Of a stretch of 44,691 nucleotides of DNA, positions 1 to 44,691 are shown one piece after another. Numbering within the stretch: position 1 is the first letter of the stretch; every line of letters begins with the position of its first letter. The notes beneath the pieces were generated by a model, which saw nothing but the letters and a program-made list of their open reading frames with translations, was not told the origin of the DNA and did no database searches. Made by a program: the position numbers and the translations under genes. The DNA comes from a virus: positions 1 through 44,691 of the IMG/VR virus record IMGVR_UViG_3300009034_000074. The stretch is one strand, 5' to 3'.

Positions 1-3000
1 CCTCCTCTGGTAATGCTATTGGCCTATACTGCTCAAGTAGACTTAGATAAATCCTCTCCGCTTCAGGAGTAAGGACAGTTGAAGTTCTGCCAAAGAAGAG
101 TAGCCAAGCATCCAGCTCAGGGCTGGCAAGTCGAGCGTTCCTTCTGGCGGTGCTGAGTTTAGATGTGTATTGAGAAATGACTTTCTCACCCTCTGCTGTT
201 TCAACTTCCCTTAGTTCGTCTCGCTTGGGGTCAGTAGCCCGAGCATACTGACGAATAACAGATTGCTCGTCCTCCTCAAAAGTATCTATGACTATCTCAC
301 GGACAACTCGGTAGGGCTGGAATAACTCACGGTTGATGTTCCACTGGAGCTTCCTCATTGGAGTCCACTCAGCCATGAGTCTTTCCATGAACTGACCTCT
401 AGCTGGTTCTGGGACTGATTCAATAAGAGCGTTAGTCATAGCGTAGTAGCTGTCAAAGTCCCGCTCCATAGCTCCAGTCTCAGGATTGTACTCCAGTTCT
501 GGAGTCAGGTCATAGTAAGCGTAGAGAAGCTCCTGGAGTGGATGATAAGTTGGCATCGGGATGCCATGAACCTCGTAGTAATCTGCCCGCTCCTCCATTG
601 TCTTTGGAACTCCATCGTGAGTTTCCATGTTGTACTTGTAGTATTCAGTGTTGCTCAGTCGCTCAGCGGCAGTAGAGGCATACTCTAGAGTTCTCCCAGT
701 CTCAGTCCGCCAGTCAGAAGCACTCATCGCCACAAGTTGGCCCTCTACCATCACGCCAGTAGTAAAGGCTTGCTCAAGGTAGTCCAAAGACATAATCCCC
801 TCTTCTACCCAACCAGTGTGTCTAGCAGTGTCCCAGATGTCCTCTGTCTCACTCCAGTACTGGCCAGTTCTAATCCTCTGCTTCTGCCATCCAGAGGGCA
901 TTAGTGGGGTAGTGTAAGTGCTACCAGCGAAGCGTCTAATCTTCTCCACTTCTTGGAGCATATACTTGTCAAAGGGTGGGAGTGGATAGACATCACTGAG
1001 CCGCTTCCCAGTCACTCCATACTGACGCATGGCTTCATCTTGGAGTTCTGGTGGGATGCCAGTTACTTCCTCTACAAAGGCAGAAGATGCTTCATAGGCT
1101 TGCTTTCGCTCCTCTGGTCGAAAAGTGAACATACCAGTGGTAGCGGCCAGGATTCCATGCTTAGCCACCTGTCGCTGGGCTTCATCCCAGAGGGCTTGCT
1201 CCTCATTAGTGAGCTTCACTCCCTGCTCCAGTTTCTCCCAAAGCCTCTGGCCATAGATATCTAGCCCACGATTGAAGGCTAGTTTATCTACCATCTGCAT
1301 AGTGTAGTAATCTCGGAATCGGTCTGGGAAGAACTGTTCTCGAAGAGTCTTGATAGCAGAGTCTGGGTGAGCAACTAACCAAGCATCCATAGCACTCTTG
1401 CCCCAAGCTGGGAGCATCTCACCAAATTGAGCCTTCTTATTTCTATCCTTAGCTCCAAACATGATAAAAGGAAGAGTCTGAAGAACTCCTGGGTAGAAGC
1501 CAAATCTCATCATAGCTCCGATTGGCTCACTCAGTCCAGGAATTAAGTCAAAATACTCAGGATAGTCCCTCATCTGGAGTCTAGCAAAAGCTGACATAAA
1601 GACAGTTCCACCAAAGGGGTTAAAGCGGAGGTCAGTGCTAGGAATATGGATGTAGCCCCTGTCTGTGTAGTCCATGTATCTGCCCATATTAGTAGCTATG
1701 TGCGGGCTTCGGAGGAAAGTCCTGAATAGCCAGGGCCAGCGTTGAGATTCATAAGTCCAGAATGGGAAAGTGCCTTTCATAAAAGCATCAAAGACATTAG
1801 CATCAGTAATATCAATGTGCTCTAACTCAAACTCCCCACGAGCCCTCTCCATAGCGGATTCTTGAATATCCAGCCAATCATCTGGGTAGATTCCCTCTGC
1901 CCTACTAGCTAAGTCATCCACTGCTGTATTGAGTTTGGCTATATCCTCTGGGGGAATCATATTGTGCTGATAAGCCAGCTTGACTTCGTCTCGGAGAGCG
2001 AATACTGCCTCAACAGTAGGGGAGATTTTAGAAGCAGTAGAAGGTTCAATCTTCATCTCCCTAACTAACTCTCGGTAGACTCGCCCAACTTCCTCTCGGG
2101 TGAAGCCTAGAGCATCAGCGGCAGCATCCACTCGTTCTGGGCCAGTTATATCAGCAGCCAAACCATTATTGATTCCTACTGCACCAGCAGCTCCCCGCAC
2201 CTCAGCGCAGAAGCCTTCCTCGGAGAATAGTAGAAAGGTGTTCAGGTCTATTGCTCTAATAGAGTCAGCTGTAGTTTGAGTAACGTCAGCTATGTCTCCC
2301 AGAGTGAGTGGCCGTTCTAGGGGCTTCATCGCTGGTAGTGGGTCGTAGCCAGCAGCCTCAAGCCATTGACTAGCACCCATTCTCATGTGGAGTTTAGCCA
2401 CATCCACATCAGCAGAGCCAAATATCTTTTCCACCGTGCCATAGTAGGCTGGCCACATCTTTTTACGGCCATACATCTTTTCCGCTTCTGTGAAAGTTAA
2501 AGCTGCTTTGTCCCTAGCCAGATGCCTAATAGCCCTTCGCTGTCGCATATAGTCAAGGAAGTTCACAGCTCTCAACCTCTCGCCAGCAGTCAGAGGTATC
2601 TCAGGAAGTTTGGGAGCTAGGTGTGCATCAAAGAACATAAGTGCTTCAGGGTTCTCAGCTCTCAACACACTAGGAGCCTCAAGATATAATATTATAGCAT
2701 CTGAGAACTCTTCATCAAAAGCCCTCCACTCACTCTTAGGTACTTCCATCGCACCTTGCGCTACACGCTTTCGCAGAAGCTCAGCCTGGGATTTACTAAA
2801 CCTGCCATACCCAGCAAGGGCATCAATAGCATCCAGGAAGAATGGAGCATCCCCAGCTTGAGCCCTAATACCCAGCCAGCCATGCCCAAATATCTCGTGA
2901 ATAAATGTATCCAAGTCTATCTTAGTGGGTACACTTCTAAGGAACACTTCCCCAGTGTACGGGCTATGTAGTCCTAAGATTACCTCCTCTGGGGATAAGC

Positions 3001-6000
3001 CAAGCTCCTTAGCCATCTGGTCTAGACCATCTGGGTCAAGATGGATGGCCGTTATATCAGATTGTAACTCAAAAGGAAGCTGATTAAACATCTCAATAAT
3101 CGGCTCTGCCTCCTCTGGCCCAATACCATGCCAGTCAATCGTAGTCCAATCTATCGGAGGTGGGGCTCTGCCTTCTAGCTGAGCCTCTATCATATTCATC
3201 ATGTAGTCGACTCTACGACCAACATCCTTCCTAGTTCTCAGATAAGTCAGATGCTCAGCTTCGTGCATAGCAGACTTTTCAGCCACATCCACTACGTCAT
3301 GAGCGGCTTCAGTGACTGCAGAGCGGGTAGCGTGAATCACATCATCTTCCAGCCGCATTAGTGTAGATAAGTCCCCTAGTAGAGCAAATAGCTGCTGTGC
3401 ATCTTCTGGTCTAGCAGTGACCATTTGGGAGATTACGAATCTGGTTCTATCATTAAACAGTTCAGCCTTCTGGAGCCAACCTTGTCTCCAAGCTCTCAAG
3501 ATGTTATCGAAGTTGTCCTCTATGGCTCCAACGCTTGTGAACTGACCTCGCTCAGCCAAGTCAATCGCTTGGTCAGTTAGGTCTCGTTCTAGATGGGGGA
3601 AGTGCTCAGTGGCCTCCATAACACTTTGAACTAGCCTAGCCCTCCGATACCAGTTAGGGTCTCGCTTCATAGCCCTAACTGCCTCTGGGCTAACTTGAGC
3701 ATTTCTCCATGCGCTGTGAGAAACCTCTGTTAACTCCCTGGAAGTTAGGCTCTCAATCCCAGATATATCATCTGCGAAGCGAGGCATCAAGTCGTCAATC
3801 CTTCGCATGGCATCTGGGGCTGCTTCTAGTAGATTCCGCTCATAAGACACCAGTATAGACCTGGCCCTCTGCAACTGCCCAACATATCCCCACCAGTCGT
3901 TCCAAGCAGGAGAGCCAGGAAGCATACGGAATACTTCTGGTAAGTCATTGAAGCGCTTAAGGAATGGAGCTTTCTTAATCAGGTCTCTAGGGAACTTTAC
4001 TGCTTCAGTTACTCCTGGGACTCTTCGACCCATTATTCGTCTAATTCGAGTCTGACCTTCTAGGAGACTTTCACCAGCCTCTCCCATGTACAAGCCACCA
4101 AGAGTTGGGGGAGCTACCCCAGGTCGGAACTCATAAGGAAGGCTACTCAAGTGACCAGCAACGGTCTGGAGTTCTGGAAAGGTGAGTCTAGATGGAAATG
4201 CAGCATCCATCCAGCCCACACCCATTCTATGGGCTCTAAAGGTAGTTTCCACCCAGTTCATAGGGCCAAAGTTGGGGAAGTAGAGAACCCAGGAGGCAAA
4301 GCGCCTGTTGATGCCAGCCAGCCTCTGGACTACTCCTATCTTAGAAATCATGTCTCCAACTCGAAGACTCCTACCCAGAAGTTCACTACCCTCACTGAAT
4401 CTCCAGTCGAAGTCCATCCAGTTCTTATAGGTAGTGTCAGCTACCACCTCGAACCAGTTTCTGAGAGATGCTTTGGTTGGGAGACGCTGGAACATACTCT
4501 TGGCAGTTCTAACAACGTCATCTTGGCGAGTTTTCCAGATGTTCTCAGCTATATCCATAAGTGTAGGGCTAGTTCTGTGTCCAAATATCTCTAGAAGCTC
4601 TTTAGCAGCCTCTCTAGGCTTATAGAGCCCACCAGCCTCAGATAGCCCCACCTTTGCCCACAACTCATTAACTTGGTCAAGAGTGGATTGAGTGATGGTC
4701 TTCTCAGGGTCTGGAACTCCTAGTCGAGTAGCCCATCTGATAGCCTCTGTTCTATCTATGTATCTGCCCACTCTAGTGAGGTAGTATCCAGCCTTTTGCT
4801 GTTGGGTTAGAGTGTTAGCAGCATAAGGGGCTGTTATGAAGTCATCAATAGCCCTGGAAGTATCCTCAGCCAGTTGAGCAGGACTAAGGTTGTTCAGTCC
4901 TTCTCCTGGGTGAAGTCGCCAGAGTAGTGTATCTACCTGTGTTAAAGCCTCACGAGCTACCTTCCTAGACATTCCATGAGGAGTCCAAGGGAGAGCCTTC
5001 CATGCTCGCTTACCAGCTAAGAATGGAGCAGCCAGAAGGTCATTGGGGAAGTTTAGAATCTTAACGGCAGCCACCGCTGCTTTGGGCATAGCCTCATAGC
5101 CAAGCTCCAAAGCGATACCTTTAGCAACTGCCCCAGTTGCTCCACCAATCAGAGCTAGAATGTTAGCGGGGTCGAATATGAGTTCCCAGACGAACTTGCT
5201 AACTCCCCCCATGTTAAGCTTCTGCCAAGCAGTGGAGTATGGGTCTTCCACTCCAGCACGTTGAGCTTCAGTGAGGAGCATTTGAAAATGAGAGAATCTT
5301 GGGTCGGTGGGCAGCAAGCGATATTCCCAAGGCCTACCACTAGGGACTCGCTCAAACGACCATCCAGTCAGTGGGAGTCGACTTGCTACATCAAAGGCTC
5401 GACCAGCAAGGGGAGCATTATACTTCCGATAGTACCAGCCATAAGCATTGATCAGAGCAGTAGCTGGCTGAGATATAACCAGTGCAAGTTGCTCCCTACT
5501 AGTTAGTGACGGCAATCTAGGGCTCATCAAGCCTTCTTGGAATGACTCATAAGTAGTGTACAAGTCCACAGCCTGAGTGCCCCAGTCATCCCACTGACGC
5601 TTGACACTCAGAAGCTCCTCTGGTAACTCAAGTCCACAAGCCAAGTACAAGTCCCGCATATCTTGGAAAGTACCTAGTTGAGCCACCACTGGTTCAGTTG
5701 GCAGCCGCTGCCGTCTCAGTATCTCAGCAGCAGGAGTGGAAACTCCAAAAGCCATAGGTCTAGGGCGAGTTGGAGAAGTCAGAGCATTAGCCAAGTCTTC
5801 ACAACTAGCACCTGGGTCGTAGCGGAGAGTACCAGATAGTTTGTGGAACAAATCAACAACAAACTCCTCGTATTCTGGACTCATAGCTCGCATCGCTATG
5901 TCTGGGCCAAGAGCGTCACCAATCTTGTCTCTAAGGAAGTTGATAGCATCCTCTGGGCTCAAAACTTCACCAATCATCATACCTTCTGGCAAGTGGTAGT

Positions 6001-6754
6001 AAGTTTGGAGCTTCAGGTTCTCAAGGTAGTACTGGGATATAATTGGTTGGAAAGCAGCCTGGGCCTCATGGAAAGCTCGGAGTGGGGCTATCTCCTTACC
6101 CACCAGCTCTAGTATCTCTTCTCCAATCAGTAGCTGCCAGAAACTAGCGTTCCGCTGGGCCTTAGCTAGCTCCATAGCACCCATCTCAAAGGCTGAATAA
6201 GCAACAGCCATGATTTGTTTCTGCCGCTCAATATCTGCGAGATATCCTTCGTAGTAAGGCTCAGCGTCTTGGATGGGTTCTTGGGGGGCTCTACGCTCGT
6301 CTACTTTTCGTTTGAATGGGTCTGGGGGAAGAACTCCACCTTCTGGTATCTCATCTGGGTGGTCTCCAATGTACTGCCACTGACTCCACTCCTGTATAGT
6401 CTCAGCGAACCTTGCTAAGTCCTCTTCAGATACATAGGGATTGTAGAAGCCCTTGTAGATATCTACTGGGTTTTTGCCGTACTTCTCGCCACCGACTGCC
6501 CAGAGCTGAGCAGTGTACTCAATGTTGAAGTTAGGATCTAGCAGCTCCTTGGTGGTCGGTCTAGTTTCAAAGCCAGGAACCTCACTGGGCATAATCTGAC
6601 CCAGCCCGACAGCTCCAGCTTTACTAATGGCATCAGGGTTGAAAGTGGACTCGAACTCAATCAAAGCAGCAAGATGGCTCCAGGGAACTTTATAGCGTTC
6701 AGCCATCGCTTTGATTTGTTCTTCAAAAGTTGACCATCCCCAGGGGTCTGGCAT
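1..6754 (-). CDS. Giant virion/ejection-type protein: N-terminal SLT lytic transglycosylase domain, internal HExxH motif (C-terminus outside window)
   Basis: The minus-strand frame is open without a stop from the ATG at 6754 to the window edge (2251 codons, more to come). Residues 25-60 read as a Slt/goose-lysozyme domain: EFEST with candidate catalytic Glu35, then GAVGLGQIMP. That fold cleaves peptidoglycan glycan strands, which would let phage DNA cross the wall. A hydrophobic stretch lies near residues 515-545. HEIFGH at 1286-1291, followed about 60 residues later by an EEFSDA segment, resembles a zinc metallopeptidase site with a downstream Glu ligand. The ATG overlaps the portal stop (TAATG), so the two are translationally coupled. 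Size, position after the portal and the lysozyme domain suggest an internal protein ejected with the DNA, like the T7 gp16 class. A tape measure is the alternative. The transglycosylase call is firm; the peptidase call and the overall role are inference. Confidence 0.85.
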   Translation of the reverse strand, partial: MPDPWGWSTFEEQIKAMAERYKVPWSHLAALIEFESTFNPDAISKAGAVGLGQIMPSEVPGFETRPTTKELLDPNFNIEYTAQLWAVGGEKYGKNPVDIYKGFYNPYVSEEDLARFAETIQEWSQWQYIGDHPDEIPEGGVLPPDPFKRKVDERRAPQEPIQDAEPYYEGYLADIERQKQIMAVAYSAFEMGAMELAKAQRNASFWQLLIGEEILELVGKEIAPLRAFHEAQAAFQPIISQYYLENLKLQTYYHLPEGMMIGEVLSPEDAINFLRDKIGDALGPDIAMRAMSPEYEEFVVDLFHKLSGTLRYDPGASCEDLANALTSPTRPRPMAFGVSTPAAEILRRQRLPTEPVVAQLGTFQDMRDLYLACGLELPEELLSVKRQWDDWGTQAVDLYTTYESFQEGLMSPRLPSLTSREQLALVISQPATALINAYGWYYRKYNAPLAGRAFDVASRLPLTGWSFERVPSGRPWEYRLLPTDPRFSHFQMLLTEAQRAGVEDPYSTAWQKLNMGGVSKFVWELIFDPANILALIGGATGAVAKGIALELGYEAMPKAAVAAVKILNFPNDLLAAPFLAGKRAWKALPWTPHGMSRKVAREALTQVDTLLWRLHPGEGLNNLSPAQLAEDTSRAIDDFITAPYAANTLTQQQKAGYYLTRVGRYIDRTEAIRWATRLGVPDPEKTITQSTLDQVNELWAKVGLSEAGGLYKPREAAKELLEIFGHRTSPTLMDIAENIWKTRQDDVVRTAKSMFQRLPTKASLRNWFEVVADTTYKNWMDFDWRFSEGSELLGRSLRVGDMISKIGVVQRLAGINRRFASWVLYFPNFGPMNWVETTFRAHRMGVGWMDAAFPSRLTFPELQTVAGHLSSLPYEFRPGVAPPTLGGLYMGEAGESLLEGQTRIRRIMGRRVPGVTEAVKFPRDLIKKAPFLKRFNDLPEVFRMLPGSPAWNDWWGYVGQLQRARSILVSYERNLLEAAPDAMRRIDDLMPRFADDISGIESLTSRELTEVSHSAWRNAQVSPEAVRAMKRDPNWYRRARLVQSVMEATEHFPHLERDLTDQAIDLAERGQFTSVGAIEDNFDNILRAWRQGWLQKAELFNDRTRFVISQMVTARPEDAQQLFALLGDLSTLMRLEDDVIHATRSAVTEAAHDVVDVAEKSAMHEAEHLTYLRTRKDVGRRVDYMMNMIEAQLEGRAPPPIDWTTIDWHGIGPEEAEPIIEMFNQLPFELQSDITAIHLDPDGLDQMAKELGLSPEEVILGLHSPYTGEVFLRSVPTKIDLDTFIHEIFGHGWLGIRAQAGDAPFFLDAIDALAGYGRFSKSQAELLRKRVAQGAMEVPKSEWRAFDEEFSDAIILYLEAPSVLRAENPEALMFFDAHLAPKLPEIPLTAGERLRAVNFLDYMRQRRAIRHLARDKAALTFTEAEKMYGRKKMWPAYYGTVEKIFGSADVDVAKLHMRMGASQWLEAAGYDPLPAMKPLERPLTLGDIADVTQTTADSIRAIDLNTFLLFSEEGFCAEVRGAAGAVGINNGLAADITGPERVDAAADALGFTREEVGRVYRELVREMKIEPSTASKISPTVEAVFALRDEVKLAYQHNMIPPEDIAKLNTAVDDLASRAEGIYPDDWLDIQESAMERARGEFELEHIDITDANVFDAFMKGTFPFWTYESQRWPWLFRTFLRSPHIATNMGRYMDYTDRGYIHIPSTDLRFNPFGGTVFMSAFARLQMRDYPEYFDLIPGLSEPIGAMMRFGFYPGVLQTLPFIMFGAKDRNKKAQFGEMLPAWGKSAMDAWLVAHPDSAIKTLREQFFPDRFRDYYTMQMVDKLAFNRGLDIYGQRLWEKLEQGVKLTNEEQALWDEAQRQVAKHGILAATTGMFTFRPEERKQAYEASSAFVEEVTGIPPELQDEAMRQYGVTGKRLSDVYPLPPFDKYMLQEVEKIRRFAGSTYTTPLMPSGWQKQRIRTGQYWSETEDIWDTARHTGWVEEGIMSLDYLEQAFTTGVMVEGQLVAMSASDWRTETGRTLEYASTAAERLSNTEYYKYNMETHDGVPKTMEERADYYEVHGIPMPTYHPLQELLYAYYDLTPELEYNPETGAMERDFDSYYAMTNALIESVPEPARGQFMERLMAEWTPMRKLQWNINRELFQPYRVVREIVIDTFEEDEQSVIRQYARATDPKRDELREVETAEGEKVISQYTSKLSTARRNARLASPELDAWLLFFGRTSTVLTPEAERIYLSLLEQYRPIALPEE

Positions 6755-8418
6755 TAGCTACCCCCCTCCGTAACTGTCCCACCGAGTCCAGGTAGTACCC
6801 TAGTCAGCGGAGACCCACCTGCTGCTTCCTCTTCTGGAGGAGCCATAGCTGCTTGACTGAGCATTTGAATCACCGTTTGAAAAGCCATAGCGTAGAGATT
6901 AGCCAGTTCATCCTGACCTTCCTCAGTTAGCTGTCTAGCCCGCTCCCGATAAGCCTGAGCCATTTCCACTTGCATTGCTACTGGATGCCGCATAGCCGCA
7001 TCAGCTATTGCTCTATTGATTTCTGCCTCTGGGTCTTTTATCTCAGGGAACAGTAAGTCCATAGTGGTAGCAGCACTCATCTGGAAGTTAGGACTCATCA
7101 TCCGAGCCACAGTAGCCCTGAGTACTAAGTCCCCAGGAATGTCCACAGTGTAAGCAGCGCTCATGTAGTAGCTCGGAGGGAGATTCTGAGGAATCTCAAA
7201 TCCCCAAGGATGGTACTTATGCTCTATCACCTGCTCAACCCAGAGGTTGTCAATGTCAGTGAGTACGTCTATCACTCCCTCATGGTAGGAGCGGAGTATC
7301 TTACGAGCAGCAGAAGCTACCTGGGTTAGTAAGTATGCAGATACCGTCTCCTGGAGATTGCCGTAGAGTTGGAATGGGAGTGAGCCACGCTGTAGCATAT
7401 TCTGAATGGTAAACATCTGGTTTGTTAACTCAACTGGAATCGGAGGAGAGACCAGTGGGGCAATCTTATCCTCTGGGCCACCTCTGAAGATGGCTCCACG
7501 CTTAAATAGCTTCTCCTCGGTCAGAATAACGTCCTCACCAGTAGACTGTTCAAAGTACTTTGGAGTAGCTACATCTCGCATAATCTGCTGTAAGAATGTG
7601 AGTTGCTTGTTGTAGTTCTCATACACCTGGAGGTTAGTGGCAACTATAGCTTCTCCGACTTCACCCTTCCAAGTCTCTAGGTCAGTGAGGGCTCCTCTAT
7701 CTGGGAGACCACCGATGGGAGCTATAAAGATAGGAATATAGGGGAAGTCCTCCTCTGTTTCTCGCTTAGGGATAGCGTTCCCAATAGACACAGCGTTGAA
7801 TACTCGGACTTCTCCACCTTTACTTATCTCCATTCTCCAGTAGTCCCTGAGTTCATTCTTATCAGCCTGAAAGCCACGACTGGGCTTCCGCCAGTTGTTA
7901 GCGTCACACTTGTGGTTAGCTTGGTCAGCAGTGACAGAGTAGATATGGACACACTCCACTAATCCCTCGTCTGTCCAGTTAGGATATACTGTCGCTGGAT
8001 GCCAGACTTCAGCGATGAGTTGTTCCTCTGTAGCCATAGCGAACACTGAGTACCAACCAGTACTAAGTAGCAACTCCACCAACTCAGTGACTGGGTCGTT
8101 TCTACCCCGTCTGCGGTTTCTGGCTGCCAGTTGCATCCAGCCGTGCTCAACCAACCGCTCCAGACTAGATGTAGCAGTAATCTGTGGCTGGTCTAGCCCC
8201 TCAACTGGGATTCTATGAGGAATGTCTCCTGGGTTGAGTAAGCTGAGAGCTAGATTGTAGAAAGTTCTAGGGTCGTTGGAGATGAATGACTCCATGTCTT
8301 TCTGAGCCAACACATTTACCAGCCTGATACACTTGTACCACTCTTTCATCTTCAAATTGCGTCTAGACCAGAAGCGGGTCAGTTCAGCACATCTGGCGTC
8401 TATTTCTCGCTTATTCAT
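6754..8418 (-). CDS. Portal protein
   Basis: A 554-residue protein forming the dodecameric ring through which DNA enters and leaves the head. It lies directly downstream of the large terminase. Size and composition fit the family: a charged, Arg-rich helical N-terminus, a mixed core containing the TWKGEVGEAIVATNLQ and LPFQLYGN segments, and a long Glu/Ala-rich C-terminal helix (residues about 450-525) with a Pro/Gly tail. The ATG at 8418 follows a TGAGGAGGAACT ribosome site. Its TAA overlaps the ATG of the giant protein. The call rests on gene order, length and general sequence character; no single diagnostic motif exists for portals. Confidence 0.85.
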   Translation of the reverse strand: MNKREIDARCAELTRFWSRRNLKMKEWYKCIRLVNVLAQKDMESFISNDPRTFYNLALSLLNPGDIPHRIPVEGLDQPQITATSSLERLVEHGWMQLAARNRRRGRNDPVTELVELLLSTGWYSVFAMATEEQLIAEVWHPATVYPNWTDEGLVECVHIYSVTADQANHKCDANNWRKPSRGFQADKNELRDYWRMEISKGGEVRVFNAVSIGNAIPKRETEEDFPYIPIFIAPIGGLPDRGALTDLETWKGEVGEAIVATNLQVYENYNKQLTFLQQIMRDVATPKYFEQSTGEDVILTEEKLFKRGAIFRGGPEDKIAPLVSPPIPVELTNQMFTIQNMLQRGSLPFQLYGNLQETVSAYLLTQVASAARKILRSYHEGVIDVLTDIDNLWVEQVIEHKYHPWGFEIPQNLPPSYYMSAAYTVDIPGDLVLRATVARMMSPNFQMSAATTMDLLFPEIKDPEAEINRAIADAAMRHPVAMQVEMAQAYRERARQLTEEGQDELANLYAMAFQTVIQMLSQAAMAPPEEEAAGGSPLTRVLPGLGGTVTEGGS

Positions 8419-8427
8419 AGTTCCTCC

Positions 8428-9966
8428 TCACCAAGACCAGCCTGGGGCTGCCCCAACATATCCCCGCTTGACAGTCTGATATTCTGTCATAGCAGCAATA
8501 CCTATCATGGCTGCCATCGCTAAGTCAACTGCGCCAAAGGATTCTACATCTGGCCCTACCCGCCTGAACCGTCTTAGCTCAGTAGCCAAACGTCTGTCTT
8601 GAGTAAACAGCGCCTCTCCCATCATCTCACCCCTAAAGTTGGATAGCAAGTGAGGCTTGGAACCTCTATCAGTTCTCCACCCAGGTTTCTTCTTTGGTTT
8701 GCCAGTAATTAAGTCAGGCATACAGTAGACATTTGGATAGTCCACCAGGGCATTAAGAACTGCTATCCCACAACTATTCCGCTCCACAGCAAGCATAGCT
8801 GGGTGTCTTCCCTTAGACTTGTAGTAACGCCCAACCTTCTTGAGCATATCAGCAATTAGTGGTGGCTCCCACCAGCCAAGTGCTGTGGCTTCGTGTCGAA
8901 TCTTCTCACCAGCAGCTATGTTCCATACTGTAATAGCCCCAGGGCTTTCCACTCCTTCAGTTGGGTCGCAAGACACAATATAGCGGCCACTCGGATTTGG
9001 CTTGAACCATACGTCTAAGAATGGGTCTTGGAGAGGCCACTGGAAGATTCTAGGAGTACTACCCTCTAACCACTCAGTTACAATGGTTTTGGGGAAGTAC
9101 AGCAGTGTACTAGTGTAGAAGCAGGACTCACTGTCCTCTGGAAACTCCTGGAAGAAGTCCTCAGCTCCTGGAGAGGCAAGCTTCATTCTTCGCCAACGGA
9201 TTTGAGCTTCAGTGATGCCAAACTTCTCCATGAGATGAAGCTCATCGTCCTGTAGTTCCATAAGTGGAGACCTTTGGTCTCGCTCAAGAGCATAAGGACT
9301 GTCTGCAGCAAGCTGATAGTCCTCCCCCCACCACCAAGGATAGAACTGACATTTGAAAGTGCTAGTACCAGCCTCAGCGGCCTTGAACACATCATAGTAC
9401 AGCGTGCCCTCTCCAAATGGAGTTGACTCAATGATGAGTCTTCCATCTAAAGGAACTCGGTCATTCGCTGGAGTTAGAATCTTTCCTGGGTTTTGCCAAA
9501 AGGCCATCTCAGAGGCTAGGAAGTTGTCAATACGCTCTCCACGAGCAAAGACATACTTCATAGAGCTTCCAATGTAGAAGGTGGAGTTCAGGTCTGGCCA
9601 AGTCAGCTCATGAGTTGACTTATGGTGGATTGGGGGCTTGAGCTCTACTGGGAGAATATCATAGAAGAATCTAGCCTTATTGAGTAGTCGCCCAGTGATG
9701 AACTCCTCATGAGCCACTACTATTGAAGTTGTCCCAGGGATAGTGATGCAGTCTATGAGGAAGTCAGCCATAATCTTAGAGGTAAATCCAAGCTGTGAGG
9801 CTTTGCAGATTATATCTCGATTAGACATATTGGCATGATAGTGGGCCTGGGTCTTGTTGTAGATAAAGGGGACTAAGTTCCTCTGCTTGTCATATATCTG
9901 AAGCAGATTCTCAGTGAATAGCCGTTTGTCAGCAATGAGTTGAGCGACAACTTGAGTATCAATCAC
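8428..9966 (-). CDS. terL: Terminase large subunit (packaging ATPase-nuclease)
   Basis: A 512-residue motor that pumps DNA into the prohead and cuts the concatemer. The ATPase half carries a divergent Walker A (KASQLGFTS, about residues 55-63) and a Walker B/catalytic segment FLASEMAFW with Glu153. The RNase H-like nuclease half begins at YIVSCDPTEG (Asp334), with VERNSCG (Glu395) and a late Asp in GAVDLAMA (about residue 477), the usual three acidic sites. The sequence SESCFYTS between the halves is typical of the family. The start is GTG at 9966 after AGAGGAT. Walker A lacks the classical GK(S/T), as in several terminase lineages. Confidence 0.95.
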   Translation of the reverse strand: MIDTQVVAQLIADKRLFTENLLQIYDKQRNLVPFIYNKTQAHYHANMSNRDIICKASQLGFTSKIMADFLIDCITIPGTTSIVVAHEEFITGRLLNKARFFYDILPVELKPPIHHKSTHELTWPDLNSTFYIGSSMKYVFARGERIDNFLASEMAFWQNPGKILTPANDRVPLDGRLIIESTPFGEGTLYYDVFKAAEAGTSTFKCQFYPWWWGEDYQLAADSPYALERDQRSPLMELQDDELHLMEKFGITEAQIRWRRMKLASPGAEDFFQEFPEDSESCFYTSTLLYFPKTIVTEWLEGSTPRIFQWPLQDPFLDVWFKPNPSGRYIVSCDPTEGVESPGAITVWNIAAGEKIRHEATALGWWEPPLIADMLKKVGRYYKSKGRHPAMLAVERNSCGIAVLNALVDYPNVYCMPDLITGKPKKKPGWRTDRGSKPHLLSNFRGEMMGEALFTQDRRLATELRRFRRVGPDVESFGAVDLAMAAMIGIAAMTEYQTVKRGYVGAAPGWSW

Positions 9967-9975
9967 AGCTATCCT

Positions 9976-10086
9976 CTACCGTGGTTTTCTTTTCTTCCTA
10001 CCAAACTTCCTACCCAGTCTTGATATCTGGGCCTTCTTGATATTTCTCCGAGAAGTGGCCTTCTGCCTCAAAGTTCGTCTAGCCAT
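9976..10086 (-). CDS. 36-residue highly basic protein between the terminase genes
   Basis: The short frame starts ATG at 10086, six bases after GGGAG, and overlaps the end of the small terminase gene by 8 bp (ATGGCTAG). It stops at 9976, ten bases before the large terminase GTG. About half the residues are Arg or Lys (MARRTLRQK at the start, RKKRKPR at the end), with no acidic residue. It probably binds nucleic acid or another phage protein. Its position suggests a packaging accessory role, but no family is recognised. Confidence 0.6.
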   Translation of the reverse strand: MARRTLRQKATSRRNIKKAQISRLGRKFGRKKRKPR

Positions 10087-10636
10087 CAGTCTCCCTGAAC
10101 TCCGCCTCTACAGTTTCCTCTGGTATCTGACCATTCTGCTTCTGCTTAGCAAGGCTGATTACTAGCTGAGTGAAAGTAATACTAGGTGGAGCTATCCCAC
10201 CACTTAGCACTCGCTTAAGTACTTCGAGCTGTTGGGGGGTGTAGAACTTCCGCATCTGTCCCAGATACTTCTGCTCCAACTTAGAAAGGTCTAATCCCTG
10301 GACAAACTTCATAAGAACATCAAAGTCCTTCTTGAGAAGCAATCTAACATTACGGAGGAACTCCATGTGAGTGAAGTCAGCCCCAAGCTGTTTACGAATC
10401 TCAGGAAGTTTGGGGCCATCCATCTCTTTGAAGTTTGGGTCTGCTTTACGCCAACGCATCACTGAGCGTTGAGTGATATCTGCTAGCTTAATAGCTTCCC
10501 TAACAGAGAAGCCACAGACCCGATAAGAGAGGTAGAGGGTTTTCTTGCTATCTCCCATCATGTAGGGAAGTACTGACTCGGCAATCAGTACTTCTGTGGG
10601 GGTATCTTGGTTCGCTGGGACTGGGAGTTTTTGCAC
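10079..10636 (-). CDS. terS: Terminase small subunit (DNA-recognition)
   Basis: A 185-residue protein, first gene of the leftward late operon. A helix-turn-helix lies near residues 50-75 (FSVREAIKLADITQRSVMRWRK), followed by a long helical region suited to oligomerisation, as in small terminases that bind the packaging site and load the large subunit. I place the start at GTG 10636, because AGGAGG lies six bases upstream. The upstream in-frame ATG at 10658 falls inside the -10 box of the promoter and cannot be in the mRNA. The leader is therefore only about a dozen bases long. The call is supported by gene order and HTH. Confidence 0.8.
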   Translation of the reverse strand: MQKLPVPANQDTPTEVLIAESVLPYMMGDSKKTLYLSYRVCGFSVREAIKLADITQRSVMRWRKADPNFKEMDGPKLPEIRKQLGADFTHMEFLRNVRLLLKKDFDVLMKFVQGLDLSKLEQKYLGQMRKFYTPQQLEVLKRVLSGGIAPPSITFTQLVISLAKQKQNGQIPEETVEAEFRETDG

Positions 10637-10655
10637 AAAAATCCTCCTACTCTTC

Positions 10656-10684
10656 ATTATACCACATAGTTGCCCCTTTGTCAA
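10656..10684 (-). promoter_or_regulatory. Late-operon promoter, consensus sigma70 type
   Basis: On the minus strand TTGACA (10684-10679), a 17-base spacer ending TATGTGG, then TATAAT (10661-10656). Transcription would begin near 10649, just before the small terminase ribosome site. The TGTG before the -10 is an extended -10 element. It is one of seven such promoters here. Confidence 0.92.
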
Positions 10685-10692
10685 GTCCACCC

Positions 10693-33502: not shown

Positions 33503-33787
33503 TTACTCCTCAACCACGAAGTCAGCGTCCTCAATAGTAACCCGAGCTCCATCAGTGGCTACATAACGCACAAGATAGAGCCCCAACTCAGCAGTACCCC
33601 CAGGAGTGTAGTCTTTATGGAACAGCCCAACTCCATCATTGCTCATAGCTTGGTCATCTACCACCTTAGTGCCAACTGGGTCGGTAATAGTAATCTGCAT
33701 GGAAGTAGCTGGGTCGGTGAGAGTTCCAGTCTCAGCGTTTCGTACTTCAATGCTGCATACTATCGTTTCTGTCCTCTGGAACGCCAT
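33503..33787 (-). CDS. 94-residue beta-rich virion protein, Ig-like
   Basis: ATG 33787 after GGAGGTGGACT, overlapping the metallophosphoesterase by 41 bp. CSIEVRNAETGTLTDPATSM, then TITDPVGTKVVDD and GLYLVRYVATDGARVTI form alternating strands typical of a small Ig-like fold decorating virions. The stop lies 3 bases before the tail-tip ATG, suggesting a tail-associated part. Confidence 0.65.
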   Translation of the reverse strand: MAFQRTETIVCSIEVRNAETGTLTDPATSMQITITDPVGTKVVDDQAMSNDGVGLFHKDYTPGGTAELGLYLVRYVATDGARVTIEDADFVVEE

Positions 33788-34655
33788 AGTCCACCTCCGT
33801 TAGATAGCCACTACTCACGGCCTCAACGTATCTTACGTCGGGCTTAATCCGAATTATAGGAGCTCCAACTGGCTGAGGCCAGAATCCCCTTCGCTCTGCC
33901 CAAGCTGGAACTTTAGTACCAACTTTGTGAGCATCTAGCCAATGCTGAGTCATCATAGCCCAACGATGCATCTCAATAGGTCTATCCCCATAGGCACTAG
34001 CCCATCGAGCAGTCATAAGCTTAAGCGGTATAATCATCCCCTTATGGCCATGAGCGACAAGATATATGTCTGCATCATAGCTCTTACTCAACCGCTCTAG
34101 GTTCAGTGCTGTCTCACCCATCAGTCGCCCACCAAACCAGCCATGATGGAGCCAGAAGTGAACTATTGTTGTTCTATTCTTCATAGTTCCCTGATGTGGG
34201 GTCTGCTTACCTCTATGGAAGTGGACATTTAAGAAGCACTCAAACCCAAACCGCTTAGTCTCCAACTCCCGCACTAAGTCTGAATAAGTATCCCTGTTTG
34301 TCTTAATCCGCATAGATTCACTGTGGTTGTCAGTGAGCAGCCCCCAGCACTTATCCTTAATAGGCTTTAGCTTATCCAGGGCATACTCGTATTGAGACTT
34401 AGCTACATCTATAGTGTCCACCCAGGGAGCTAGCATCTGCGCATCGTAGCGCTTATCTCCTGGAACTATTAAGTCCAAGAACTCGCCCATCCCTATCCAG
34501 CGGGCACACTTATGGCGCTTGATGTAAGCAATACGCTTATCCAACTTTTCTTCATCGCAGATGACTAGCCCGTAGTGAATGTCCCCAAGTGGAAAGACCT
34601 CAAATACCACACTCCGATTTGGGTAATACTCGTCTAACTTAACGAACTCGCTCAT
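33747..34655 (-). CDS. Calcineurin-like metallophosphoesterase
   Basis: 302 residues. The family's metal ligands appear in order: GDIHYG (Asp25, His27), GMGEFLD (about 55-61, Glu where Asp is usual), TDNHSE (Asn110, His111), LHHGW (170-173) and AHGHKG (His202, His204). Such enzymes hydrolyse phosphodiesters or phosphomonoesters in nucleic acids or nucleotides. Here the gene sits between the endolysin and tail genes and overlaps both, so the product may travel in the virion or act late. The motif II change leaves activity to be proved. ATG 34655 after GGAGGACAA. Confidence 0.8.
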   Translation of the reverse strand: MSEFVKLDEYYPNRSVVFEVFPLGDIHYGLVICDEEKLDKRIAYIKRHKCARWIGMGEFLDLIVPGDKRYDAQMLAPWVDTIDVAKSQYEYALDKLKPIKDKCWGLLTDNHSESMRIKTNRDTYSDLVRELETKRFGFECFLNVHFHRGKQTPHQGTMKNRTTIVHFWLHHGWFGGRLMGETALNLERLSKSYDADIYLVAHGHKGMIIPLKLMTARWASAYGDRPIEMHRWAMMTQHWLDAHKVGTKVPAWAERRGFWPQPVGAPIIRIKPDVRYVEAVSSGYLTEVDYGVPEDRNDSMQH

Positions 34656-36124
34656 TTGTCCTCCACTTCAGACAACGCCTCATCTCCAACGGCTATCATC
34701 TCTCTTATAGCGTCCTTGAGGAGTTGCTTTCCTAAGTCCTCTTTTACCACTAGTCTACTAATATCAAAGTCACCAGGGCATAGATTGGACTCGTGTCCAG
34801 ACATCTGCTTGTGGCCTCTGAGTGGTAGTCGTCCACCAATAGCGTTGGTTATGGCTACAGTCAATCTACGACCAGATTTATACTGCTCCTCAGTTGGCAA
34901 TCGTCCCTCTATGAAACTGCCCTCAAAGCAGAAACCTAGGGTGTGCTCATTGTGACGTTTACAGTGAGCACTACGCACTTCTAAAGAGTTAGCCCAGTAG
35001 ATAGTCCCATCCCTTCTAATGTAGAAATGGTAGCCTGGGCCAGCCCAGTTGAGGGTTCTAACATGATATCTGGCTAGTCCTTCAGGAGTTACTTTAGCAT
35101 CAACTCCAATATGATGTACCACAATAGTATCTATACTAGATATACCTCTCCTACTGAACATTAGAGTTGGGTGTCGCTGAATATCAGAGCGGAGGTCTCG
35201 CAGCTCAATGTCCAGTTTGATATCTGTGTGGAGTGGTAAGTCAGTTCTCATCGCTTCCCTCCTTGGGTATGGAGATTCCACTTTGGGAGCTTCTCGTAAC
35301 CTTTGGAAGAACTCTGGTAAGTTGGGCTGAAATCTAGATATATCATTTACAGCGTTCCAGTGATCAGAGCGCAAGATGAATGGACAAGCCCCAATTACGT
35401 AGTGAGCATCCTCCTCTATCCGTCTGAAGTAGTAGATTAACTCCTGAGCCAACTTTGGATTCCCTGGGTAGAAGCTACCACACTCACTAATAAACATCGG
35501 AATCCAGTAGTTCTTACTCTCCAAGAAGTCATGAATCTTGCGGTGGCGGAGGCCTCTATGGTAAGACTCCTCTGGGTCATAGAGTCCAGGGGGATAGTAC
35601 CCCTGGTCTTTCTCCCAGTAGCAGTGTACGTCTAAGATATCACAAGCATCCATAACTGGCTTCCAGATGTCGAACCAGAGTGGAAGGTCGACTCGCTCAT
35701 GAGCTAGAGCTGGGGTGTGAATCATAGCAGTAGGACACTCATCACTGAGCCTATGGGCTACCGCTACATTCCAGTCACGAGCATATTTGAGTCTATCTAT
35801 AATAGGCTGTCCCCACCCTGGCCAGTTGGGGTAGATATCCTGTTCATTCTCCAGCATGATGTGCTCAGTGTATTGCTGATGCTCTCTGAACAATCTAGCC
35901 AGCTGCATAGCATAGTCCTGAGCAAACACATCCATCCAGTTTGGCACACAGTGTCTATGCACGATTATAGCCCCAGGAATCGCTTTAGCAATCTTCTCCA
36001 CAGCCCCATAAGCTCCATCTATTACCACAAAGTTGTGGCCACCCATGCTTAGAGCTTGTCTTCTTAGCCGCTCACTTATTAGTACATTTGCCCAATGGAT
36101 GCCAAATCTGTTATGCACTACCAT
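34652..36124 (-). CDS. Two-domain endolysin: GH-A glycoside hydrolase-like plus PGRP/amidase_2
   Basis: 490 residues. The N-terminal 280 residues look like a clan GH-A TIM barrel: LENEQDIYPNW with the Asn-Glu acid/base pair (Asn93-Glu94) and MFISECGSF with the nucleophile Glu214. The C-terminal 160 residues are a zinc amidase of the PGRP/amidase_2 type: TIVVHHIG (337-338), GYHFYIRRDGTIYW, GHKQMSGHES and CPGDFD with Cys449. The two would cut sugar and peptide bonds of the wall. ATG 36124 has GGGAG immediately before it, and a GTG at 36118 has better spacing. It is flanked by tail genes, so a virion-bound role at entry is possible. Confidence 0.85.
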   Translation of the reverse strand: MVVHNRFGIHWANVLISERLRRQALSMGGHNFVVIDGAYGAVEKIAKAIPGAIIVHRHCVPNWMDVFAQDYAMQLARLFREHQQYTEHIMLENEQDIYPNWPGWGQPIIDRLKYARDWNVAVAHRLSDECPTAMIHTPALAHERVDLPLWFDIWKPVMDACDILDVHCYWEKDQGYYPPGLYDPEESYHRGLRHRKIHDFLESKNYWIPMFISECGSFYPGNPKLAQELIYYFRRIEEDAHYVIGACPFILRSDHWNAVNDISRFQPNLPEFFQRLREAPKVESPYPRREAMRTDLPLHTDIKLDIELRDLRSDIQRHPTLMFSRRGISSIDTIVVHHIGVDAKVTPEGLARYHVRTLNWAGPGYHFYIRRDGTIYWANSLEVRSAHCKRHNEHTLGFCFEGSFIEGRLPTEEQYKSGRRLTVAITNAIGGRLPLRGHKQMSGHESNLCPGDFDISRLVVKEDLGKQLLKDAIREMIAVGDEALSEVEDK

Positions 36125-36128
36125 CTCC

Positions 36129-36968
36129 CTATGGCTTAGGAACTGACTCCACAGATAGGTTCTGCTGAGCTAAAGTAATAGCATCACCCACATTGTTCCG
36201 TGCCGCTTGGACAGTGATAGTACGAACCCCAGCAGCTGCACTAGGAAAGTGAGCCACGATAGTCGTTCCAATATAGCGGTTCAAAGCGCACCCAATCACC
36301 TCAGTCTCCCCAGCCTGACTAGCTCCATCTAAGTCAATTCTGAACTTAGTTGAAAAGGCTCTGTCAGCTGTAGTATTCCTCCAGTTGATAAAGCAAATTA
36401 CCTTCAAGTCAGATACTCGTGGCAAGTCGATGGTATCTGAACAGTTTGTGTTTTGCCATACGCCTGCCCCCGCAGTAATGCTAAAATCAGCTGGCTGCTC
36501 CACATACTCTAGCATAGACATTTCAGGAGCGAATACTCTCCTATCAGTAATATCAGCGTCGAGTATGGTAGTCTCAGCTGGCTCTACCCAGACTTCAGCC
36601 AGTATAACTTTACCTGATGGAATATCTGGTGGAGCTGGTTGGTAAGTTTGAGGCCCAGTCTTATCAGTTGGAAGTCTTGTCGCTGCTACTCCAGTCACTG
36701 AGCTCAAAGTCCCAGCACTATCACCAACTATCAAGTCCTTGCGGTAGAGAGTGCCATGAGCAGCTGACAAGGACACTTGTGTAGCTGAAGCCTTAACAAC
36801 CACAGTCCCATCAGCACAGTATGTACCAGCAGCCACTTGAACTGTCATGTCTGGAGTTGACCACTCAGTCACTGCTAGGCCAGATAGTACAAACTCCTTA
36901 CCCTCTAGAGCAGCTAGTACTGCGTTTATGTCATTATCGAATAAGTAATTACCGTCTGCCACTTTCAT
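36129..36968 (-). CDS. Beta-rich fibre/baseplate-type structural protein
   Basis: 279 residues; ATG 36968 after GGGAGGAGGGCTGTC, overlapping the repeat protein gene. The sequence is dominated by short strands: VQVAAGTYCADGTVVVKASA, KVILAEVWVEPAETTI, then a compact C-terminal beta domain ending NNVGDAITLAQQNLSVESVP. The N-terminal DNDINAVLAALEGKEFVLSG resembles a trimeric fibre attachment segment. Role inferred from place and composition. Confidence 0.65.
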   Translation of the reverse strand: MKVADGNYLFDNDINAVLAALEGKEFVLSGLAVTEWSTPDMTVQVAAGTYCADGTVVVKASATQVSLSAAHGTLYRKDLIVGDSAGTLSSVTGVAATRLPTDKTGPQTYQPAPPDIPSGKVILAEVWVEPAETTILDADITDRRVFAPEMSMLEYVEQPADFSITAGAGVWQNTNCSDTIDLPRVSDLKVICFINWRNTTADRAFSTKFRIDLDGASQAGETEVIGCALNRYIGTTIVAHFPSAAAGVRTITVQAARNNVGDAITLAQQNLSVESVPKP

Positions 36969-38359
36969 GACAGCCCTCCTCCCGTTATAGTGCTAGTAAT
37001 ATCCAGTGATGTATCAGAGGTAGCAGAGATACTAAGGCCAGTATCAAAAGTGGGGGTTAAGTTTAGAAGCCTAATCTTAGCCCCTCTGAAAGTGTCAAGC
37101 AGTGATAGAGCCTCACTAAAGTACCTCCTTGACCGTTTAGATATGGTTTCAGTTAGTGATATACTCTCTACCAGCGTTAAGAACATCTTCTTAACTGCTG
37201 ATACTGAGTCAGACAATGACAAGCCCTCAGTGAAGAGCCTTCTCACCCTCTTGGTCTGAGTATCCCATAGAGTTATGGTCTCTCTTAGAAGCTTCTTAGG
37301 ACTCCGAGTCAAAGTATCAGTGAGAGTAATACTCTCAGTCAGTGCCTTATACTTCTTCCTATAAGCCTCTACAGTGTCAGTGAGAGACAGCGGTTGGGTG
37401 AGTAGCTTCCTTGCCCGCTTAGTGATAGCATCAGACAGACTAAGAACCTCGGATAGTTCCCTTCTAGCCATCTTGCTTACAGAGTCTGAGATACTCAACG
37501 CTTCACTTAGCAACTTCTCATAATACCTTCTTGCTGCTACAGAGTCCGTAAGTGATAAAGCCTCAAATAGCACCCGCCCAGACACTCTCTTCTTGACTGT
37601 TTCTACTAGGGAAAGAGACTCGACTAGTTCATAAGTCCCACCTCCGTACTTAGCCATAAAGCCATACTGTGAGTAACCGTATTTGAGTTGAGTACCACCT
37701 GGGCCAGAGATAATAGGGCCAGCTAAGACAGGAGCACCAAAGGCTTCGGCGGTAGGGATACCAGAGGGAGTGATAGGGACTGAGTACAGCACTGTAAGAA
37801 CTGGTCTGTAGGCTGGGGTAGCGTGGTTGGCTGTTGCAAGTATAATAGTCTCTGTGTCTTCTCCAGTTGGAGGAACAGCGTTCTTATCTCTTGAACTTCG
37901 TAAGCTATAGTAAGTGAGTCCAGTTTTATTTATCCTAGATATATCCAGATTTGGGCTAGTATACTGCGTGCCTATAGATATACCAGCCGTGTTTCTCCAG
38001 ATTGCATCCAGAACACCAGCCAAGCAGTTGTCATAAGCCGCTTCCATATTACCCGCCCCTATGGGGTCTTGAGCTGACCAGTCTTGTTTAACAATCTCAA
38101 CATCAAAGTCCACAGGAGAATAATCCTCAACACAAACTAACTTCATATTGACTTGGAGAATCGTAGCACTATCAGGGATGTCACTTGTATCAAACTTGAA
38201 GAAGATACGGGTAGTTTGATAGTCGGCAGGTTTGTTCTGCCCAACTGTAACTACAGCACAATCCTCACTATAGCTAGTAGCAGTAGAGCGGGCCGTAGCA
38301 TACACTGGACTAATTCCGTATACTTCGTGACAGCCTGTGTGTCCCGAAAAGTCAGGCAC
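36965..38359 (-). CDS. Virion protein with DNRLRE-like domain and ten SLSLTDS repeats
   Basis: 464 residues; GTG 38359 after AGGAGAATAA. Residues 1-195 resemble a DNRLRE-type beta domain (TRIFFKFDTSDIPDSATILQ, and YRPVLTVLYS at its end), known from surface and adhesion proteins. A Pro/Gly linker follows. Residues about 246-423 hold ten units of 17-20 residues with core LSLTDS/T (ESLSLVETV, EALSLTDSV, SEALSISDSV and so on), separated by basic turns such as KRARRLL. It is probably a fibre whose repeats build a regular shaft. The extreme C-terminus is Thr/Ser-rich. Confidence 0.75.
   Translation of the reverse strand: MPDFSGHTGCHEVYGISPVYATARSTATSYSEDCAVVTVGQNKPADYQTTRIFFKFDTSDIPDSATILQVNMKLVCVEDYSPVDFDVEIVKQDWSAQDPIGAGNMEAAYDNCLAGVLDAIWRNTAGISIGTQYTSPNLDISRINKTGLTYYSLRSSRDKNAVPPTGEDTETIILATANHATPAYRPVLTVLYSVPITPSGIPTAEAFGAPVLAGPIISGPGGTQLKYGYSQYGFMAKYGGGTYELVESLSLVETVKKRVSGRVLFEALSLTDSVAARRYYEKLLSEALSISDSVSKMARRELSEVLSLSDAITKRARKLLTQPLSLTDTVEAYRKKYKALTESITLTDTLTRSPKKLLRETITLWDTQTKRVRRLFTEGLSLSDSVSAVKKMFLTLVESISLTETISKRSRRYFSEALSLLDTFRGAKIRLLNLTPTFDTGLSISATSDTSLDITSTITGGGLS
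37091..37624 (-). repeat. Tandem repeat region encoding ten SLSLTDS units
   Basis: Ten degenerate direct repeats of roughly 51-60 bp inside the 36965-38359 gene. The protein cores align closely while the DNA has drifted, so selection acts on the protein pattern. Confidence 0.75.
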
Positions 38360-43296: not shown

Positions 43297-44304
43297 CTAA
43301 GCTACAATAGCGGTATCCAAGATACCGTCTATGAGAGCTATGGACTTGGTGCTTCCTAGACCCTGGTTCACGTACCACTTGAGTCGGAAGCGCTCAGCAT
43401 CCTTATCTTCCAGGTCAGGGAACTCGACCAAGTCGAACATAGGACTGCCAGTGATTAGACACAGACCACCTTCCTCGACTGAGCCAAACTTAACAGCAAA
43501 GATGGAGCTAGCAGTTCCACCTGTCTTAGCATTGAACTTGCTAGAAACCAGCTTCTCGGTCTGAGTCAGGTAGTCAGTCCGAACGATTCTCACACCCCTG
43601 TAGAAGTGAGACACAGGAGCCAGGTCGTCACCGACTCGTTGAGTGGTGACTACTGGAACGGTTATGCCCTGCTCACCCCGCCCCATCGCTTGGAATCTAC
43701 GCCAGAGGTTGAAGGTCATCAACAGGATATCTGGCTTAGGCTTAACCAAGTCAATGAGCTTATCCATGTTAGCCAGAGAGAGAGCACCACCAGCGGTGGC
43801 AGAAGCACCCTGATAGATTCTCTGGGCAGCCATACTTGCATCGTTAAGCAGAGTGTGCATACCCATAATCTGGAGTTCTTCACCACCAGAGCCAGCCACC
43901 CTAGGAGTTCCCACTCCATAGATTAGCTGGTCTTCCACCCAGCGCATTACACCTTTACGGCACTGGCTGACTGCGAGAGCCTTCAAGTCATTGGGGTCTC
44001 TATACGTACCAGTGATGAAGTGGTCTAAGTCCCACTGACCCACAACTCGCTTCAGCTGCACTGCTACATTGATGAACGCTGCTGGGGTAGCGCTGATTAT
44101 CTCTTCCCCAATATCTACGTACTGAGCTACTGGGAGAGTGCTCTCACGCCTGTACTGCAACTCTTTGCTATCGAGCTGCATGATGGGGAGTTCGGGGATG
44201 AGCTGTCCTTCTTCGATTATCTCTTCAATGATGCCCCTAAGCAGAGTATCGGTCACTAGCTTTTGGGCTTCAGCGAGAGTCTTGTAAAATTCTACAACAG
44301 CCAT
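43297..44304 (-). CDS. Major capsid protein (HK97-fold type)
   Basis: 335 residues; ATG 44304 after AGGGAGGTCAAG. It follows a scaffold-like gene and precedes the decoration gene. Family features: an N-terminal helix (FYKTLAEAQKLVTDTLLRGI), LPVAQYVDIGEEI, the spine segment LKALAVSQCRKGVMRWVEDQ, a surface G-loop near GSGGEELQIMGMH, and KPDILLMTFNLWRRFQAMGR in the core. The end (DAERFRLKWYVNQGLGSTKS) is the typical closing strand of this type. Confidence 0.9.
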   Translation of the reverse strand: MAVVEFYKTLAEAQKLVTDTLLRGIIEEIIEEGQLIPELPIMQLDSKELQYRRESTLPVAQYVDIGEEIISATPAAFINVAVQLKRVVGQWDLDHFITGTYRDPNDLKALAVSQCRKGVMRWVEDQLIYGVGTPRVAGSGGEELQIMGMHTLLNDASMAAQRIYQGASATAGGALSLANMDKLIDLVKPKPDILLMTFNLWRRFQAMGRGEQGITVPVVTTQRVGDDLAPVSHFYRGVRIVRTDYLTQTEKLVSSKFNAKTGGTASSIFAVKFGSVEEGGLCLITGSPMFDLVEFPDLEDKDAERFRLKWYVNQGLGSTKSIALIDGILDTAIVA

Positions 44305-44322: not shown

Positions 44323-44691
44323 TTACTCCTGAGCTGCAAGACCCTCTTTAATCAGCTGTCGGCCAGTTCTACCACCAGTGACTACTGCTTCACCTCCACC
44401 ACCAGCGTCAACTCCAGCCTTAGCGAGGTCTCGCTTTTGAGCTTTCGTGTCTTCGAGGACTTGTTTGTAGGTGTTGAGCTCATCGAGACTCTTACCTTCT
44501 AACACTCCCTCTTCTAGAACATATGTAGCTTCTATGTTCTGCCTAGTGAGGTCGATGACTGTCTGGGACAGCTCATCACGACTCTTGGTCGCAGTGTCTC
44601 TCTCGGCTTTTACCTTGTCAAGTTCCCCTACAGAAGCCTGTGCTTCGGTCAGCTCCTTCTGAACTTTCTTCAAAGAGCTTTCTACCCCCAG
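44323..44691 (-). CDS. Scaffold-like coiled-coil protein (N-terminus outside window)
   Basis: The frame is open to the right edge, so the start is not in the window; 122 codons are visible and it stops at 44323. Heptad-rich helix (LTEAQASVGELDKVKAERDT), then ELSQTVIDLTRQNIEATYVL and a Gly-rich stretch with GGGGEAVVTGGRTGRQ. The location just upstream of the capsid gene, the coiled coil and the short basic end match head scaffolding proteins. Confidence 0.7.
   Translation of the reverse strand: MGVESSLKKVQKELTEAQASVGELDKVKAERDTATKSRDELSQTVIDLTRQNIEATYVLEEGVLEGKSLDELNTYKQVLEDTKAQKRDLAKAGVDAGGGGEAVVTGGRTGRQLIKEGLAAQE

Follow-up and report, generated by a model that had tools for sequence, protein, structure and literature searches.

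What kind of protein is encoded by the very long reading frame at the left end of the virus record IMGVR_UViG_3300009034_000074? This IMG/VR contig, 44,692 bases long, comes from a bacterial virus known from environmental DNA alone, and the window analysed here is its positions 1 to 44,691. The original prediction had described the frame as a virion-type protein of more than 2250 codons, coupled to the portal gene, that combines a lytic transglycosylase with a metallopeptidase-like site and resembles polyvalent proteins. We propose, with a probability of roughly 0.72, that this giant protein (the giant) is a capsid-stored, injected polyvalent-type protein carried on a new backbone family; as far as we found in the literature, the family has not been described before. 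Comparisons were made over a sample of 54 non-redundant giants, 42 of them complete or nearly so.

The long frame is borne out, with 2,251 open codons; it lies on the minus strand, which corrects the first reading. The 554-codon gene upstream shares its last base with the ATG of the frame, so the coupling stands, while the name portal for that gene comes from position and synteny. The frame is cut by the window end, as had been noted, and only a few codons of its 3' end are missing: the stop-terminated homologues L010 and L011 align to residues 2247-2250, and the giant is therefore nearly complete. Hydropathy analysis revealed no membrane segments in it.

Predicted enzymatic modules of the giant

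The N-terminal SLT domain, with E35 and the motif GAVGLGQIMP (from residue 47), was found where it had been read. The match to Pfam PF01464 is significant (E 2e-14), and the assignment combines this profile match with the catalytic glutamate. The giant also matches PHROG 342, annotated as internal virion protein with endolysin domain (E 2e-8). A Pfam scan of the giant gave no family besides SLT. The SLT domain is carried by four giants, those of the window, L010, L011 and L094.

HEIFGH and the downstream EEFSDA are likewise both present as predicted, with the correction that the spacing is HExxxH and exceeds that of HExxH by one residue. HEIFGH alone is weak evidence, because about 10% of shuffled versions of the giant contain an HExxH or HExxxH. 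The site is taken as real because it is conserved in ten other alignable modules; among the eleven the only invariant columns are the H, the E and the second H, and the downstream glutamate column is nearly invariant. A HEAEH at residue 1164 was considered as a second peptidase site and rejected, its Glu not being conserved in the relatives; it is probably a decoy.

Structure prediction, which had been suggested for residues 1250-1400, returned a zincin-like AlphaFold2 model of the window module (pLDDT 87.2, pTM 0.81). The elements run in the order helix, strands, HExxxH helix, Glu helix, with both motif helices behind the strands, as in zincins, where an HExxH or HExxxH helix and a further helix with a glutamate lie behind a beta sheet. 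Among solved structures, Foldseek ranks lethal-factor-type zincins first (probability 0.98, E 0.013, TM 0.37). A profile search of the module placed IrrE-type zinc hydrolases at the top with a weak score (E 0.08); polyvalent zincins have been linked to the IrrE-type superfamily, and HEXXXH peptidase forms have been reported (PMC5512222). The profile search advocated by the original prediction was significant for SLT in Pfam and, for the zincin-like fold, gave no MPTase or LPD match among the Pfam profiles for the giant and the modules. The zincin fold class of the module is well supported by the predicted structure, and the reading of a metallopeptidase-like site on a polyvalent-type chain is supported with it. 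The SLT domain and the zincin-like module give the chain two unrelated domains, as polyvalent proteins have at least two.

A conserved backbone with exchangeable modules

Direct searches with the giant gave little. A tblastn search against 50,697 phage records matched the SLT domain of one phage and nothing else, two non-SLT parts of the giant had no significant match in these records, and the family was found in none of the genomes, one each, from 84,980 bacterial and archaeal species. In IMG/VR, the giant, its C-terminal third and the terminase large subunit (TerL), each used as a single query sequence, recovered no relatives. Relatives were first reached through an alignment of the capsid protein, whose phage homologues are about 30% identical. 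The IMG/VR capsid scan led to L010 and L011 (capsids 58% and 54% identical), both contigs of which carry homologous giants, and a second scan with the three giants yielded 68 loci. The giants range from 1,538 to 2,584 amino acids, varying by inserts and inteins.

The alignment comprises 1,831 core columns, with a conservation peak at window residues 1650-1750 that includes FPFWTYESQRW. Outside the core lie 67 stretches in the 54 proteins, six of them listed as inteins. The modules occupy about six sites (window residues: the N-terminus, 721, 1074, 1114, 1196 and 1622); 38 of the 54 giants have at least one internal non-intein insert, and relatives carry up to three modules per chain. At site 1196 the relatives have a canonical HExxH zincin, a GNAT-like module, ParB or nothing, and the zincin module is missing there from L011 and from most relatives. 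Significant profile matches identify enzyme modules of the ParB_N (9e-6), NTP_transf_2 (6e-7) and GNAT (2e-7) families. At the level of motifs, five relatives share an invariant ART-like R-S-ExE (R, SS, ESE), and a GNAT-like group comprises eight modules at three sites. Searches of both groups against PDB sequences gave nothing relevant, so the ART and most GNAT assignments are motif-based. The suggestion that the rest of the chain may hold more effectors holds for the relatives, with their ParB, nucleotidyltransferase, GNAT, zincin and ART-like modules; in the window giant, what remains is conserved backbone, where Pfam matches no domain.

The nine zincin carriers at site 1196 require at least eight changes on a tree built from the C-terminal backbone. 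The zincin stands before a backbone block in L124 and after the same block in L109, the two modules being homologous (27.7% identity, E 2e-6). Most backbone segments of L124 and L137 are 65-81% identical, and the zincins of these two stand at different sites. This turnover and these shifts are the pattern expected from exchangeable modules. Tree and alignment together show a conserved backbone on which the predicted enzyme modules have come, gone and changed place among a small number of fixed sites.

Inteins as a control for cysteine exclusion

Seven relatives carry a stretch with the sequence pattern of an intein, that is, an N-terminal C or S, splicing-domain blocks and an N before C, S or T at the exit. 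These putative inteins, of about 300 residues, lie at window residue 1666 in L097, L130, L132, L137, L142 and L146 and at 1696 in L153, where they interrupt PFW^TYESQRW, the motif of highest conservation, or one close to it; that of L137 was merged with a module in the list of stretches and is the seventh. One intein was scanned with Pfam, with a weak splicing-domain match (0.024).

The window giant has 3 cysteines, and 18 of the 42 complete relatives have none (L107, L108, L116 and L123 are examples of near-cysteine-free giants). Cysteine makes up 0.064% of the backbone (60/93,029) and 0.010% of the modules (1/10,314), as against 1.63% of the inteins (35/2,147) and 0.83% of the other open reading frames (ORFs) of the same loci (1,033/123,864). 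No other residue is so depleted, the next lowest ratio being 0.77 for histidine. The inteins, predicted to be spliced out, thereby form a natural control, showing cysteine kept within them and nearly excluded from the presumptive mature chain. Exclusion from the mature chain and not from the inteins is expected if the chain threads a narrow channel and an oxidising space. T7 gp15, T7 gp16, the N4 virion RNA polymerase and P1 Sit have zero cysteines, and T7 gp15, T7 gp16 and the N4 enzyme are injected proteins. For the N4 virion RNA polymerase, it has been proposed that the absence of cysteine is relevant to injection (PMC2784036, PMC3915230). The idea is thus already published for N4-like polymerases; we found no published precedent for the scale and the intein control.

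Two further giants stand upstream of capsid genes. That of L012 (2601-9284; 2,228 amino acids, 0-1 cysteine) is in the same slot and shows no homology by tblastn; that of L017 (3150-8888) has about 1,900 amino acids and 0-1 cysteine. The most divergent relative, L154, has a second long cysteine-free ORF (3837-6686; 950 amino acids) between the portal-like gene and the giant.

Weighing the alternatives

The position of the gene bears on all readings. The giant is placed in the head operon, between the portal-like and scaffold genes, because the window contains, at its right end, the C-terminal part of a scaffold-like protein followed by the capsid gene. The order TerL, portal-like gene, giant, scaffold, capsid recurs in almost every locus that extends to both sides of the giant, so that the giants stand among virion genes, as polyvalent proteins do. 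From this position, the SLT domain and the exclusion of cysteine we infer packaging and injection with the DNA.

Several points weigh against an injected polyvalent-type protein. The backbone has no significant fold match among PDB and viral structures and no convincing PDB sequence match, and for several of the stretches counted as modules no fold can be recognised. The fold matches to zincins come with E above 0.001 and low TM-scores, and the window copy has the HExxxH spacing. Cysteine is very low in the scaffold (0.04%) and low in the portal proteins (0.34%), and long ORFs at the tape-measure place in siphovirus-like relatives linked through the capsid protein are mostly cysteine-free; conversely, the polyvalent-type P1 DarB has 9 cysteines in 2,255 residues (0.40%). 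Since cysteine is rare in tape measures and scaffold too, the signature is not specific to injected effectors, and we caution that depletion marks passage through the particle rather than effector function.

The giant might be an internal ejection protein only, like T7 gp16, opening the wall and helping to form the DNA conduit, with modules that are structural and non-enzymatic. It follows the gp16 plan, with an SLT domain at the extreme N-terminus of a very large, helical chain almost without cysteine, and the unusual spacing of the window zincin would suit a non-enzymatic module. We consider this unlikely, given that the catalytic signatures are kept (HExxH with a distant Glu, R-S-ExE, and significant ParB, nucleotidyltransferase and GNAT profiles) and that the modules are swapped as discrete units.

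The main rival, which we judge improbable, makes the giant a tape measure protein moved upstream, which sets tail length, uses its SLT domain as the wall hydrolase usual in tape measures and tolerates the inserts as decorations. Tape measure proteins are long and helical and often have an SLT domain; P1 Sit is a cysteine-free SLT tape ruler, downstream of the capsid gene most giant loci show no second tape-like ORF that is long and cysteine-free, and the weak, non-significant fold matches of the backbone include tape measures. The gene position argues otherwise, as tape measure genes follow those for the tail tube and chaperones in the long-tailed, siphovirus relatives, whereas the giant lies between portal and scaffold, upstream of the capsid gene. 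The large variation in length caused by inserts and inteins also speaks against a ruler, and enzyme modules such as ParB, nucleotidyltransferase and ART-like ones are not known from tape measures.

That the zincin module is instead a head-maturation protease acting on capsid proteins during assembly, without any effector role, is very improbable: many phages do encode such a protease between portal and scaffold, but maturation proteases are normally indispensable, and most relatives have no zincin at any site yet keep their scaffold and capsid genes. The precedent in its favour is the polyvalent DdrB of P1, which is processed before packaging (PMC5512222).

Proposed mechanism

For the injected polyvalent-type protein, the following route is proposed. 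The giant would be made from the head operon and packed with the DNA near the portal, and at infection it would pass through portal and tail. The SLT domain, judging from its identity and its T7 gp16-like placement, would open the peptidoglycan, and the helical backbone would follow, bringing the module or modules towards or into the cell. The zincin may then cut the chain, freeing its parts, or cut host proteins. More tentatively, we suggest that the backbone could be a dedicated injection chassis with a few sockets, into which cysteine-free enzyme modules of about 100-350 residues are slotted for delivery together with the genome of the phage, and between which, and between lineages, they are exchanged.

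Organisation of the window

The features are collected in Table 1. The portal identity rests on position and synteny, because PHROG scans of the putative portal and its homologues did not match any portal family, and nothing in the PDB was found with a profile built from 11 homologues. Going by the L010 and L011 spacing, a complete genome would probably be no more than a few hundred bases longer than the record.

Table 1. Features of the giant and of its neighbouring genes in the window.
Feature	Position	Strand	Residues	Remarks
Giant protein gene	2..6754	minus		2,251 codons within the window; complete but for a few at the C-terminus
N-terminal module with SLT lytic transglycosylase	6275..6754	minus	1-160	SLT 14-84; catalytic Glu35 predicted
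Backbone, N-terminal half	3170..6262	minus	165-1195	High occupancy in 42 complete relatives; no Pfam match
Zincin-like metallopeptidase module	2603..3169	minus	1196-1384	AlphaFold2, Foldseek and homologous modules
HEIFGH motif (HExxxH)	2882..2899	minus	1286-1291	In a predicted helix (model residues 94-112); HExxH stands at the aligned place in ten homologous modules
EEFSDA	2696..2713	minus	1348-1353	Helix predicted to supply the third zinc ligand (model residues 153-172)
Backbone, C-terminal part	2..2557	minus	1400-2251	Most conserved; predicted mostly helical
Signature FPFWTYESQRW	1736..1768	minus	1663-1673	Intein-split in relatives
Portal, putative (554 amino acids)	6754..8418	minus		By position and synteny; after TerL in the window and relatives
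Terminase large subunit	8428..9966	minus		PHROG 2, E 2e-14
Terminase small subunit, likely	10079..10690	minus		PHROG 4044, E 0.004; place conserved in relatives
Major capsid protein	43297..44304	minus		PHROG 212, E 4e-33
Scaffold-like protein, C-terminal part	44323..44691	minus		Cut by the record end; homologue of the L010 coiled-coil gene between giant and capsid

Other genes of the window, all on the minus strand, deserve mention. A 135-amino-acid protein (38368-38775) is 58-64% identical to Mycobacterium and Pseudomonas phage proteins (PHROG 644), a conservation far above that of the other proteins searched from this genome. Two proteins of the virion region consist of short repeats (39839-41149 and 36965-38359; GSLTPSG... 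and LSLSDSV...). Within the tail and lysis region lies a DNA repair exonuclease-like gene (33747-34655; PHROG 7339, 3e-13), and a 490-amino-acid protein (34652-36124) has a C-terminal amidase domain and a long N-terminal part without assignment.

Comparison with known systems

With T7 gp16 the giant shares, beyond the general plan, the N-terminal SLT domain with its catalytic glutamate (E37 in T7, E35 here) and entry into the cell, known for gp16 and proposed for the giant. Outside SLT no homology is detectable; gp16 has no zincin module, and its gene follows the tail genes, whereas that of the giant lies between portal and scaffold. The N4 virion RNA polymerase (gp50) is also giant and cysteine-free and is fused to a zincin peptidase domain (PMC5512222); it differs in its gene position and in its backbone, which has no detectable relation to that of the giant, where no RNA polymerase was detected. 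DarB, DdrB and Sit of P1 are giant or processed virion proteins with a zincin (DdrB) or SLT (Sit), but they are separate proteins, and no backbone in common with the giant was found.

The closest parallel is with the polyvalent proteins (Iyer et al. 2017, PMC5512222), large chains encoded near virion genes that combine unrelated enzyme modules in one polypeptide, among them zincin (including HEXXXH), lysozyme or transglycosylase, ART, GNAT, nucleotidyltransferase and ParB. Their definition drew on highly diverse architectures, and for most of them injection is a prediction. The giants differ from them in a backbone without Pfam LPD, MuF, ArdC-N or RNA polymerase match, in modules confined to a few orthologous sites of that one conserved backbone, in inteins within its most conserved motif and in the near absence of cysteine. 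About 50 orthologous chains on one backbone make the gain, loss and movement of modules countable on a tree, and the intein control makes the claim of threading into the host testable. A long, cysteine-free chain encoded in a head or tail operon is suggested as a signature by which injected phage proteins may be recognised.
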